A DNA stretch of 33,813 nucleotides, from NCBI GenBank assembly GCA_019745075.1, contig JAIETR010000028.1, positions 1 to 33,813 of the forward strand. The letters run 5' to 3'. Below are positions 30,462-33,813 of the stretch, piece after piece. Below the pieces are notes generated by a model. It saw only the letters and a list, made by a program, of their open reading frames with translations. It had not been told where the DNA came from and ran no database searches. This DNA is from Qipengyuania sp. Its GTDB lineage: Bacteria > Pseudomonadota > Alphaproteobacteria > Sphingomonadales > Sphingomonadaceae. Numbering within the stretch: the first letter of the stretch is position 1; the number at the start of each line of letters is the position of its first letter. The translations under genes and the position numbers were made by a program.

Positions 30462-31913
30462 ATGAGCATCGCGAAGAAAATCGGCATCGGCTTCGTCGTC
30501 GCAATCCTGATTCTCCTGATCGCCGGCTGGCTGTACACCCGCCCGGACCAGGCCGACCTCGCCTGGGCCAGGGTGACGGGGACCGATCCGGAGCTCGGGC
30601 CGCCGCAGGGCGAAACCTTTCCCACGGTCGGGATCGCCGAGCCGATCGGCTGGGCGGCGGGGGCCGCGCCCGCGCCGGCCGCGGGCCTCGCGGTCAGCCG
30701 GTTCGCCGAGGGACTCGATCACCCGCGCACGATGCTGACGCTGCCCAATGGCGATGTGCTGGTGTCGCTCACGCGCGCGCCCGCGATGAAGGCGCCGGGC
30801 GACGACATCTGGCTGCGGCAGAAGATTCAGGGCTACCTGTTCCGCAAGGCGGGCAGCGGCGGGACCTCGCCCGACCAGGTGCTGCTGCTGCGCGACGCCG
30901 ATGGCGACGGCCGCGCGGAGGGGCGCTTCGTGCTCGGAAACCGGTTCGCGTCACCCTCGGGCCTCGCTTGGGCGAACGACCGGCTGTTCGTCGCCAGTCA
31001 CGATGCGGTCTGGGCTTGGCCGTACAAGCTCGGCGAGACCGCGCTTGCCGGGACGCCGACCAAGATCATGGACCTCGCCCCCGGACCCAACCACTGGATG
31101 CGCAACCTGCTGCTCAGCCCCGACGCGAGCAAGCTCTATGTCGCGGTGGGGTCGGCTTCGAACATCGGCGAGAACGGGATGCAGGCCGAGAAAGGCCGCG
31201 CGCTGATCTGGGAATATGATTTCGCGACCAAGAGCCGGCGCGTGTTCGGCGCGGGGCTGCGCAATCCCAACGGGCTGGCCTGGAGCCCGTGGTCGGGCGA
31301 ACTGTGGACCACGGTTAACGAGCGCGACATGCTGGGCTCTGACCTGGTGCCGGACTACCTCACCAATGTGCCCGTCGGGGTGCAGTACGGCTGGCCGTGG
31401 GTCTATTGGAAAAACAATATCGATCAGAGAGTTAAGTCCGGGATGCCGCAGTTCATGACCGAGTACACGCGGCGGCCGGAGTATTCGCTCGGGCCGCATG
31501 TCGCGCCGCTGGGGCTGGTGTTCTCGCAGGGCGGCTCGCGGCTCGGTCCTCGATTTCAGCAGGGCGCGTTCATTGCCCAACACGGCTCGTGGAACCGCAG
31601 TCCTCCGTCGGGCTACGACGTGGTCTATGTCGCTTTCGACGCGCGCGGCAATCCGCAGGGCAAGCCGATAACGGTCCTGAGCGGGTTCCTGACCGGCGAC
31701 GGCAAGACCCAGGGCCGCCCGACCTGGCTCGCCTGGGCCAAGGATGGCGCGCTGCTGTTAAGCGACGACACCGCCGGAATCATCTGGCGCGTGATCGACC
31801 CTTGGGCCGAGCCTGCCCCGGCGATTGTGCGCGAGACGGGCCGGCCGCTGCCGCCGCAGAGGGAACTGCGGGGTCTGCAAGGCGCGTTCAAAGAGGATTA
31901 CGCGCGGCAGTAA
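30462..31913 (+). CDS. Sorbosone dehydrogenase-like PQQ-type beta-propeller, membrane anchored
   Basis: A 483-residue protein of the L-sorbosone / PQQ-dependent sugar dehydrogenase family, which oxidises sugars or aldoses in the periplasm. An N-terminal anchor (IGIGFVVAILILLIAGWLY, residues 7-25) leads into the propeller. Motifs include LDHPRTMLTLPNGDVLVSL, LLRDADGDGRAEGRFVLG, GAGLRNPNGLAWSPWSGELW and AFIAQHGSWNRSPPSGYDV. Substrate and cofactor are inferred from the family. The gene stands alone and is followed after about 8 bp by an IS5 element. Confidence 0.88.
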   Translation: MSIAKKIGIGFVVAILILLIAGWLYTRPDQADLAWARVTGTDPELGPPQGETFPTVGIAEPIGWAAGAAPAPAAGLAVSRFAEGLDHPRTMLTLPNGDVLVSLTRAPAMKAPGDDIWLRQKIQGYLFRKAGSGGTSPDQVLLLRDADGDGRAEGRFVLGNRFASPSGLAWANDRLFVASHDAVWAWPYKLGETALAGTPTKIMDLAPGPNHWMRNLLLSPDASKLYVAVGSASNIGENGMQAEKGRALIWEYDFATKSRRVFGAGLRNPNGLAWSPWSGELWTTVNERDMLGSDLVPDYLTNVPVGVQYGWPWVYWKNNIDQRVKSGMPQFMTEYTRRPEYSLGPHVAPLGLVFSQGGSRLGPRFQQGAFIAQHGSWNRSPPSGYDVVYVAFDARGNPQGKPITVLSGFLTGDGKTQGRPTWLAWAKDGALLLSDDTAGIIWRVIDPWAEPAPAIVRETGRPLPPQRELRGLQGAFKEDYARQ

Positions 31914-31933
31914 TGCCTAGGAGTCGTGGACAA

Positions 31934-32364
31934 TTAGCGTGACCAGATGGCGGCGGCGACGAGTTGGATCATGGAGAGATAGGCTCTGGCGGTTTGCTCG
32001 TAGCGGGTGGCGATGCGGCGGAAGTGTTTGGCTTTGTTGAAGAAGCGTTCGACGAGATTGCGCTCCTTGTAGATGACGGGGTCGTGGTCGATGCGCCTTG
32101 CGCGGCTGCGGCTGGAGGGGATCGCGGCTTTGGCCCCGGCCTGGTCGATGGCGGCGCGGAAGTGATCGGCGTCATAGGCCCTGTCGGCGAGGACATGCGC
32201 GGCGGGCAACCCGGCGATCAGGGCCTGGGCGTGAGTGACATCGCCGGCCTGACCGGGAGTGACGAGAAAGCGGACCGGCATGCCCAGGCCATCGACCGCG
32301 ACATGCAGCTTGGTCGTCAAGCCGCCTCGGCTGCGGCCAATGGCGCGATCTTCAGGCCCCCTTT
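31934..32364 (-). pseudogene. IS5-family transposase, C-terminal part (interrupted)
   Basis: Reads GPEDRAIGRSRGG then TTKLHVAVDGLGMPVRFLVT. It carries the second catalytic aspartate in LADRAYDADHFR and the third catalytic (Glu) region in RNLVERFFNKAKHFRRIATR. It ends AAAIWSR. The 5' side is cut at 32364 by the IS110 element. The matching upstream part is at 33717-33813. Disrupted, so not expected to be active. Confidence 0.88.
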
Positions 32365-32368
32365 ATGG

Positions 32369-32380
32369 ATGGCCCGCCCC
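32369..32380 (+). repeat. Left subterminal inverted repeat of the IS110-like element
   Basis: ATGGCCCGCCCC, a perfect 12-base inverted match to 33702-33713. It begins four bases inside the left boundary (seven if the TTT belongs to the element). Confidence 0.85.
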
Positions 32381-32437
32381 TAAATCGAACCGTTGTCGTC
32401 TCACGACAGTGGGTCGTTTGAGGAAGGAGCGAGGATC

Positions 32438-33376
32438 ATGGACGTATCAGTTCTTGGAATCGACTTGGGGAAGAACAGCTGCAGTGTGGTCGGCTTGGAT
32501 GCGACCGGCAAGGTCGTTGTCCGCCGGCGGATGCGGCGCGAGACGGTCATCACTTACGCGGCGACCTTGCCGGCCTGCGTCGTGGCGATGGAAGCCTGCT
32601 GCGGGGCTCATCACATGGGTCGCGCATTGGCACGACAAGGCCATGCCGTTCGGTTGATGTCGCCGGAGTATGTCCGTCCCTACGTCAAGGCGCAGAAGAA
32701 CGACGACCGCGATGCGGAGGCGATCGCGGAAGCGGCGACACGGCCGACCATGCGGTTCGTCGAGTTGAAGACCGAGCAGCAACTCGACATGCAGACGCTG
32801 CACCGCATTCGCGACCAGCTAGTCGGTGATCGCACCTCGTTGATGAACCAGATCAGGAGCCTTCTGCTCGAGCGCGGCCACATCGTGCCGCAAGGACGGG
32901 CAAAGCTCGCGGTTCGGTTGGGTGAGATGCTCGATGGCGACGAGCCGGTGCTCGGCTTTCGCATCCACCGGCTCGTCGGCGATATGCGCTTGCGCTGGAT
33001 CGCCCTCGATGAGCGGATCGCAGATCTCGATGCCGAGTTCGCCGAGGCTGCCCGGACAGATGAGCGGACGCGGCGGCTGCTGACCATTCCCGGCATCGGT
33101 GCGCTCAATGCGACCGCGCTGGTGGCAGCGGTCGGCGATGCCCGGACCTTCGGGCGTGGTCGCGATCTTGCCGCCTGGCTTGGCCTGGTTCCGCGGCAGG
33201 CGACGACCGGAGGCAAGCCGCGGCTGCTCGGCATCACCAAGCGCGGCAGTCGCTATCTGCGCAAGAACCCGATCCAGGGCGCCCGTGCGTCATTGCCGAC
33301 AATGAGCAAGAGCGATACGCGACTGGGCGCCTGGCTGCGCGGTTTGCTGTCGCGGTCCCACCCAACACCGTCGTAG
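32438..33376 (+). pseudogene. IS110-family transposase, C-terminus frameshifted
   Basis: A DEDD transposase/recombinase. The N-terminal RuvC-like domain has Asp in LGIDLGKNSCSVVGLD, Glu in VVAMEACCGAHH, and two Asp in KNDDRDAEAIAEAATR. The C-terminal transposase_20 region has IPGIGALNATALVAAVGD and WLGLVPRQATTGGKP. The frame stops at 33376 after SRSHPTPS. One missing C near 33361-33363 would restore RSHPNTVVVALAAKMARIVW and run to a stop at 33462 (about 28 more residues). A good ribosome site (AAGGAGCGAGG) precedes the ATG at 32438. 312 residues as read. Confidence 0.85.
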
Positions 33377-33462
33377 TGGCGCTGGCGGCCAAGATGGCGC
33401 GTATTGTCTGGGCGCTGCTGCGTCATGAGCGCACCTATGACCCGGTCGCGCAAGCGGCCTGA

Positions 33463-33701
33463 ACAAGATCGGCCGATGCCCCTTTGCACCGGCTGGATGA
33501 TGTCTGCGGGAGGTGAGTGACAGATGGCCTGACAGTCGACCGGTGTCCCGGAACCCTACGGCGTAAGATGGCACTCGATGCCGGCCCCTTTATGAGGACC
33601 AGGACGCGCGGATCTCCATCTTGGCCAACGACCTCGCGTCGAAAGGCCGGATACGTTTTCGCAGACTGCTCAGAAACATCGGACACAAACCGCTTGCCGA
33701 C
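33463..33701 (+). ncRNA. Candidate guide (seek/bridge) RNA region of the IS110-like element
   Basis: Roughly 240 bp of noncoding DNA between the restored transposase stop and the right subterminal repeat. It contains CCCCTTTATG (33585-33594), identical to ten bases across the element's left junction (32358-32367). It also contains ATACGTTTT (33651-33659), identical to nine bases across its right junction (33712-33720). IS110-family elements encode a guide RNA in such a segment. The RNA ends and fold are not determined, and the function is inferred. Confidence 0.6.
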
Positions 33702-33713
33702 GGGGCGGGCCAT
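33702..33713 (+). repeat. Right subterminal inverted repeat of the IS110-like element
   Basis: GGGGCGGGCCAT, perfect inverted partner of 32369-32380, followed by three bases (ACG) before IS5 sequence resumes. Confidence 0.85.
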
Positions 33714-33716
33714 ACG

Positions 33717-33813
33717 TTTTACCCGTGGCGTGCTGATGCGCCCGGACGATGGTGGAATCGACGATCAGGTAATCGAAGTCCGGATCCTCGGCCAGCGCAT
33801 CGAACAGCCTCCG
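33717..33813 (-). pseudogene. IS5-family transposase, middle part (interrupted, cut by window edge)
   Basis: Read leftward, this gives FDALAEDPDFDYLIVDST then IVRAHQHATGK, the conserved region holding the first catalytic aspartate (VDST) of IS5 transposases. Joined to 31934-32364 it restores an open frame. The N-terminal part lies beyond the window. Confidence 0.82.

Follow-up and report, generated by a model that had tools for sequence, protein, structure and literature searches.

The 3' noncoding segment of an IS1111-group insertion sequence (32363-33716), which has inserted into an IS5-type transposase gene, very probably encodes a seekRNA or bridge RNA that would hold both target and donor guides, direct joining at a TT dinucleotide and be re-aimable through changes in its guides. 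The element lies in the window, i.e. the whole stretch of 33,813 nucleotides analysed here (contig JAIETR010000028.1 of Qipengyuania sp.), and all features of the element and its RNA given below are on the + strand. Covariation of guides with insertion sites, a covarying fold, an invariant donor guide and the element junctions, all read directly from the sequences of the element and its relatives, carry this explanation.

Element boundaries were set by comparing the junctions with those of relatives and with a related IS5 copy on contig C75 of the same genome (L004), which is uninterrupted at the insertion point. They run from the left copy of the core TT (32363-32364) to the right end ACG (33714-33716). 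With few exceptions (e.g. L082, L089, L098 and L106), TTATGG is found at the left junctions and ATACGTT at the right ones, so that the core common to the target and the element ends is TT. Perfect subterminal inverted repeats of 12 bp, ATGGCCCGCCCC at 32369-32380 and its exact reverse complement GGGGCGGGCCAT at 33702-33713, stand 6 and 3 bp from the element ends. Domain profiles identified both IS110 family domains in the recombinase (RuvC-like DEDD domain, PF01548, E = 8.8e-20; C-terminal domain, PF02371, E = 9.5e-20), which also shows the S/T-G motif of the family as TTGG after GLVPRQA, and a noncoding region of about 240 bp (33463-33701) follows its gene. In the available portions of its description (PMC11187229), the IS1111 group is characterised by subterminal inverted repeats of 11-13 bp, which stop 7 (or 6) and 3 bp short of the element ends, and by an extended noncoding stretch behind the recombinase gene. 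Judged by the features tested, the element is a member of this group with a predicted seekRNA.

The interrupted gene, on the - strand, encodes a DDE_Tnp_1 (IS5-type) transposase, in agreement with the preliminary description of this DNA; both the PF01609 match and the uninterrupted relative on C75 bear this out. Its C-terminal half, including the target bases CCCCT, occupies 31934-32362 (PF01609, tblastn), and its N-terminal side (33719-33813, 98 % match to C75) runs off the window end. The DEDD recombinase open reading frame (32438-33376) comprises the N-terminal domain (PF01548) and most of the C-terminal domain (PF02371). By comparison with the 341-aa recombinases of relatives (L007, L008, L009, L011 and L064), the reading frame is lost near 33365, and the ~33 C-terminal residues continue in another frame that ends at 33460-33462. 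The window copy may therefore be a dead one, or the broken frame may stem from an error of the draft assembly; despite it, the RNA part looks intact.

The preliminary description had pointed to two strings, each present at one junction and again in the noncoding segment. Both were found where it had placed them, i.e. CCCCTTTATG at 32358-32367 and 33585-33594, and ATACGTTTT at 33712-33720 and 33651-33659. Its statement that such a coincidence is unlikely by chance also held, given that both junctions were matched in none of 5000 dinucleotide-preserving shuffles of 33463-33701, and that a junction-crossing match as long was obtained in 4/5000 shuffles for the left junction (10 nt) and 6/5000 for the right one (9 nt). 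The strings are indeed junction strings, but the element boundaries lie within them and not at their edges: CCCCTTTATG is composed of target CCCCT, the common core TT and element ATG, and ATACGTTTT of element ATACG, the core TT and target TT.

Insertion sites of relatives were gathered from genome contigs (the best 80 of 159 relatives, i.e. 79 loci), from further genomes (16 loci, one of them being the window's own copy) and from plasmid records (26 analysed out of 60 listed from 447 matching, picked for diversity and not at random). Loci without a readable RNA and right end were dropped (24), leaving 103 copies. Copies that lacked a left end, had N close to the junction or extended for fewer than 12 nt on the right were then removed and each site was reduced to a single copy, which gave 74 non-redundant sites. 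They comprise 35 sites with CCCC at the left flank (hereafter CCCC sites) and 39 non-CCCC sites. At L010 and L016, the right end runs into an N and then into a repeat of the RNA segment, apparently an artefact of scaffolding, and L025 holds two divergent element copies close by in opposite orientation.

Each flank was moved, in both senses, over the full ~287-nt segment and scored against shuffled pairings (500 shuffles). For the six bases left of the core, the best fit was in the same sense at 33584-33589 (4.61/6 matched vs 2.57 shuffled, z = 16.1). The eight bases that follow the core on the right gave theirs as reverse complement at 33558-33565 (4.77/8 vs 2.91 shuffled, z = 11.5), and a register shifted by one base came second (z = 9.7). 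Position by position, the left-target guide (CCCCT in the window, 33585-33589) matched flank positions -5 to -1 in 81-97 % of the 74 sites vs 41-61 % in shuffled pairings, and positions -6 to -9 gave no excess of matches, so that this guide has a sharp edge and a length of 5 nt. For the right-target guide (33560-33567, reverse complement of the right flank and core), 62-78 % of the sites matched at t3-t8, the shuffled values being 29-36 % at t4-t8 and 68 % at t3, and registers slip by 1 nt. The window copy itself reaches 5/6 only in the slipped register 33561-33566 (TTACGC vs TTACCC), with fewer matches in the other. As the right-target guide is a reverse complement of the flank, it had been overlooked in the preliminary description. 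Guides are thus ordered in the RNA as 33560-33567, then 33585-33591, according to the covariation over the 74 sites. The left guide is followed by the core TT and ATG (33590-33594), TTATG being found in 72/74 sites, and ATG also starts the element after the core.

Related elements sitting at related sites could mimic such matching without any base pairing. The shuffles do not preserve relatedness and several irrelevant placements in the scan reached z values of 4-6; placements other than the two above went up to about 6, and some of them likewise outscored all 500 shuffles, owing to the relatedness of the copies. Against relatedness as the whole account, the match follows the letters of each copy's own flank, with its sharp edge at -5. 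Among the 39 non-CCCC sites, the left guide matched 4.10/5 vs 1.61 shuffled and the right guide 4.97/6 vs 3.26 shuffled, with 0/2000 shuffles as good in either case, so that the result does not depend on two groups only. The left guide was matched 5/5 at 16 of them, with 14 different guides, 4/5 at 14 and only 2-3/5 at 9. At CCCC sites, it was matched 5/5 in 34/35, but there it barely varies (60/2000 shuffles as good), and the right guide matched 4.57/6 vs 3.79 shuffled (0/2000 as good). Close relatives with different sites also have correspondingly different guides: when each copy was set against its nearest relative having another left site, the left guide fitted its own site better in 65 cases, equally in 3 and worse in 6 (n = 74), and the same contrast for the right guide gave 40, 22 and 12 (n = 74), these contrasts being not independent because many share one partner. 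The refuting condition set at the outset, i.e. copies at unrelated sequences with unchanged strings, was examined over the 74 sites with the opposite outcome: the guide changes with the site. We therefore regard relatedness alone as a very improbable explanation, and retain base pairing of the guides with the target.

According to the preliminary description, both strings would be junction copies that guide target choice. Its first string does contain the left-target guide, whereas a role of the second as a target-junction guide was not supported. The literal presence of both strings and their absence together from all 5000 shuffles are in keeping with that proposal; however, ATACGTT stays unchanged across all right flanks, the two bases behind it show no tracking of the flank (final TT of the second string: 46 % vs 43 % shuffled at t3, 22 % vs 21 % at t4), and it is a different segment, 33560-33567, that tracks the right flank. 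Target choice by the two strings as first described is hence extremely improbable. Because ATACGTT is invariant and equals the right end of the element plus the core, positions 33651-33657 are best read as a donor guide (ATACG and core TT). The invariance concerns both the RNA and the element side (74/74), which makes covariation impossible for a donor guide. A possible second donor guide, UCCAU at 33615-33619, could pair with ATGGA at the left end, with a complementarity of only 4-5 nt; CCATCTTGG at this place is invariant.

The preliminary description had also taken the 3' segment for a guide-RNA gene, which both the guide-site covariation and a covarying fold support. The predicted structured segment (33495-33680; covariation on 41 sequences and covariance model R1) is delimited by a closing stem (33504-33507 with 33661-33664). 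Its target-binding arm (33541-33610) is built of a long stem (33541-33551/33599-33610), a CCU/AGG stem (33555-33557/33595-33597) and a cap hairpin (33569-33573/33579-33583), an arm supported by pairing and compensatory changes, and the right- and left-target guides are the two sides of one internal loop, i.e. the 5' and the 3' side, respectively. A donor-arm hairpin of variable sequence (33623-33648) has 87.1 % of its cells paired and 5/7 pairs changed on both sides. Over the 41 diverse sequences, 94.1 % of cells are paired in this fold vs at most 41.6 % in slid versions, and 154 cells are changed on both sides vs 45.5 ± 6.8 when shuffled. Compensatory changes were found in 17/30 pairs vs 11.9 shuffled. 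All these figures are helped by the fold having been derived from this very alignment. A conserved structure with guides in internal loops is thus predicted for the target arm, and is less certain for the donor arm. One RNAalifold helix, AGATGG (columns 31-36) with CCATCT (columns 134-139), was excluded from the fold, since it is invariant, hence uninformative, and competes with the donor loop. Taken alone, the window sequence folds with an ordinary energy (z = 0.17), and a search of 31800-33813 against Rfam gave no family match up to E = 5.

A covariance model was built from the 41 sequences, the use of such a model having been among the checks suggested at the outset, and it matched 24/48 held-out loci at E up to 0.1, i.e. 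about 21 distinct elements. Duplicates occur among the 48 loci: L153 and L174 (L153/L174) share one place, and so do L132/L171 and L136/L169. Nineteen rows of distant elements, including L131 and L076, were further inspected by eye; L162 and L181 duplicate L128, and L130, L159 and L191 have no placeable left guide. Left guides were readable in 14/17 distinct distant elements, with the guide order of the window element. On the right side, guide AGTGGGACA of L131 is readable against its right flank TGTCCCACT, and L154 displays a 10-base match. The RNA triplet after the left-guide core in the 14 distant elements, read by eye, was ATG in 5, ATA in 3 and ATT, ACC, AAT, TTG, TTT or GCG in 1 each, and the element starts with ATG after the core in 14/14, so that pairing of this ATG is indistinguishable from a conserved RNA motif. 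A left guide running on into the element's ATG might act as a second-strand handshake spelling the left junction of the product; we consider this weaker possibility rather unlikely.

We propose that the 3' noncoding segment of this IS1111-group element would be transcribed as a seekRNA/bridge RNA and bound by the DEDD recombinase. In one internal loop, the top strand to the right of the insertion point would be bound by 33560-33567, and 33585-33591 would base-pair with the TT core and with the bottom strand on the left side. In a second arm, 33651-33657 would pair with the element's own right end in its circular form. The RNA-loaded recombinase would then fuse the circle to the target at TT, so that one product junction reads target-left, TT and ATGG, and the other ATACG, TT and target-right. 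Relatives would re-aim by altering both guides, many of which would point at the A-run of the frame overlap in transposase genes of other families. For transcription, the RNA-protein complex, the circle and catalysis, this scheme draws on published work on IS1111 and IS621.

Regarding the targets, at least 42 of the 73 sites examined touch transposase genes, as a raw count. An IS5-like transposase was detected by tblastn in a flank of 27/35 CCCC sites and in both flanks of 23/35, the corresponding numbers for the 39 non-CCCC sites being 2 and 1. As the window, L004, L117 and L127 supplied the IS5 queries, they match themselves; with the window and L127 removed, the count is 25/33 CCCC sites. 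Published traits of the IS1111 group also comprise insertion that is specific in site and orientation, and excision as a circle; of these, specific positions and a single orientation were observed at the IS5 sites. For non-CCCC sites, a Pfam scan covered 70 of the 103 listed open frames and 38 of the 39 sites (L106 omitted). Transposase domains (HTH_Tnp_1, DDE_3, rve and DUF4096) were present at 15/38 (L044, L045, L046, L049, L052, L059, L060, L063, L088, L099, L107, L116, L117, L119 and L120), helix-turn-helix domains only at 4/38 (L105, L110, L114 and L125), and neither a transposase nor a helix-turn-helix domain in the frames tested at 19/38. Insertions L052, L120, L105, L110, L114 and L125 seemingly occupy the same place of IS630-type genes, and their guides differ as the codons do.

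On the transposase strand, the core sits in an A-run. T-runs are of 3-6 at CCCC sites, and at non-CCCC sites the T-run is of exactly 7 in 20/39 and nothing extends beyond the core TT in 10/39; examples of codons at the core are CCA AAA AAA CTG and GGA AAA GGG GGG. Among sites with both IS5 halves (n = 24), a -1 relation between the halves was found in 18, a +1 relation in 1 and a common frame in 5, and in 18/24 the match to the N-terminal half stops at a distance of 0-4 nt from the core; the 24 include the window, whose N-terminal piece was translated in an arbitrary frame, its value of 0 being meaningless. Among sites with both IS3/IS630-type halves (n = 8), the relation is -1 in 6, +1 in 1 and in frame in 1. 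Programmed frameshifting is a trait of IS3, IS630 and some IS5 elements, and the A-runs at the frame overlaps are likely to be programmed -1 frameshift windows, as judged from the overlap together with general knowledge of these families. The C75 copy has six T at the site, and the window target (32357-32364 joined to 33717-33724) adds up to five. By hand reading, this difference gives the gene halves a different frame relation, i.e. -1 in the C75 copy (T6) and not so in the window target (T5 in all).

These observations lead us to favour slightly the view that the clade is an RNA-guided parasite of transposons, whose guides would be selected for the A-run of the frame overlap and whose prey would be switched through five plus six RNA bases. 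The bias could also be incidental, arising from IS-rich regions or from guides that happen to fit A-runs, with no selection for transposase frameshift windows. The transposase share indeed consists of raw counts from this clade alone, 8/35 CCCC sites have no IS5-like flank, 19/38 other sites have no transposase or helix-turn-helix match in the frames tested, and 10/39 non-CCCC sites have no T-run beyond the core TT. An incidental bias accounts less readily for the IS5 genes being broken at the same point (the 18/24 matches ending 0-4 nt from the core), for the -1 relation in 18/24 IS5 sites (query sources, i.e. the window and L127, included) and in 6/8 IS3/IS630-type sites, or for the T-run of exactly 7 at 20/39 non-CCCC sites. 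We hold it to be a real possibility, yet one below even chances. If guides are indeed selected in this way, the A-run frame-overlap signal, kept alike by IS5-, IS3- and IS630-type elements, would serve as a common address.

In its own genome, the element is present as one full-length copy and the RNA covariance model gives one match. An exact-pattern search found the RNA pattern in 2/385 genomes of the class and 13/397 of the family, own genome included, so the distribution of the element is patchy. Relatives sought by protein in IMG/VR gave 10 candidate stretches, of which 0 were confirmed. The same genome carries on contig C2 a second, distant IS1111-type element (L003/L130) with a 348-aa frame and inverted repeats of its own; a right-guide match of 7 bases can be read in it, its left guide is not placeable and the RNA model gives no match. 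Partial relatives lie on contigs C21 and C79.

RNA-guided recombinases of the IS1111 type are among the candidate tools for programmable DNA insertion, and guide/target pairs in the portions of the literature available to us cover few elements. To these, the clade adds a covarying fold, a covariance model and a set of 33 different left-guide 5-mers, each paired with natural sites. It also provides guide lengths, namely 5 nt plus core on the left and about 6 nt on the right, where the register slips by 1 nt. The target pattern leads to a testable idea, namely that such elements find plentiful and harmless addresses in conserved signals within other transposons. What merits follow-up is the compact table of natural guides and targets, together with the apparent targeting of the A-run at frame overlaps of other transposons.

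A guide-RNA mechanism is already known for the IS1111 group, and the aim at the frame-overlap A-run may be unreported. The accessible text of PMC11187229 and PMC11208160 holds 0 mentions of frameshift or slippery sites, and a search for papers linking IS1111/IS110 targets to programmed frameshifting, which covered few subscription papers and no preprints and is thus weak evidence of novelty, returned none. In the sections consulted of the work on IS1111-group seekRNA elements, i.e. ISEc11, ISXne4, ISPa11 and ISKpn4 (PMC11187229), the RNA likewise lies downstream of the recombinase gene, subterminal inverted repeats are present, the top-strand complement precedes the bottom-strand match and guides are naturally re-directed; targets and core are different there. 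What is presented here differs in covering 74 sites of one clade, in a donor guide read from invariance and in the many sites within transposase genes (compared with PMC11187229, as far as its text was available).

The bridge RNA of IS621 (IS110 group) similarly has target and donor loops, with left and right guides around a 2-nt core, but lies in the left end of the element, with a reversed guide order and a CT core, as far as described in the extracts used (PMC11208160, PMC11208158). Inspection by eye of the window RNA, at the place equivalent to the IS621 handshake bases, gave no match to the donor. Elements aimed at other mobile DNA are not confined to this clade: IS4321 and IS5075 reportedly aim at Tn21-family ends. 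ISEc21, according to the passages available, aims at DDE codons of IS3-family transposases (PMC11187229). As far as these partial accounts go, all three resemble the present clade in being IS110/IS1111 elements whose insertion is directed to conserved sequences in other mobile DNA; compared with them, the address here would be the frame-overlap A-run in IS5-, IS3- and IS630-type genes, reached by means of different guides.
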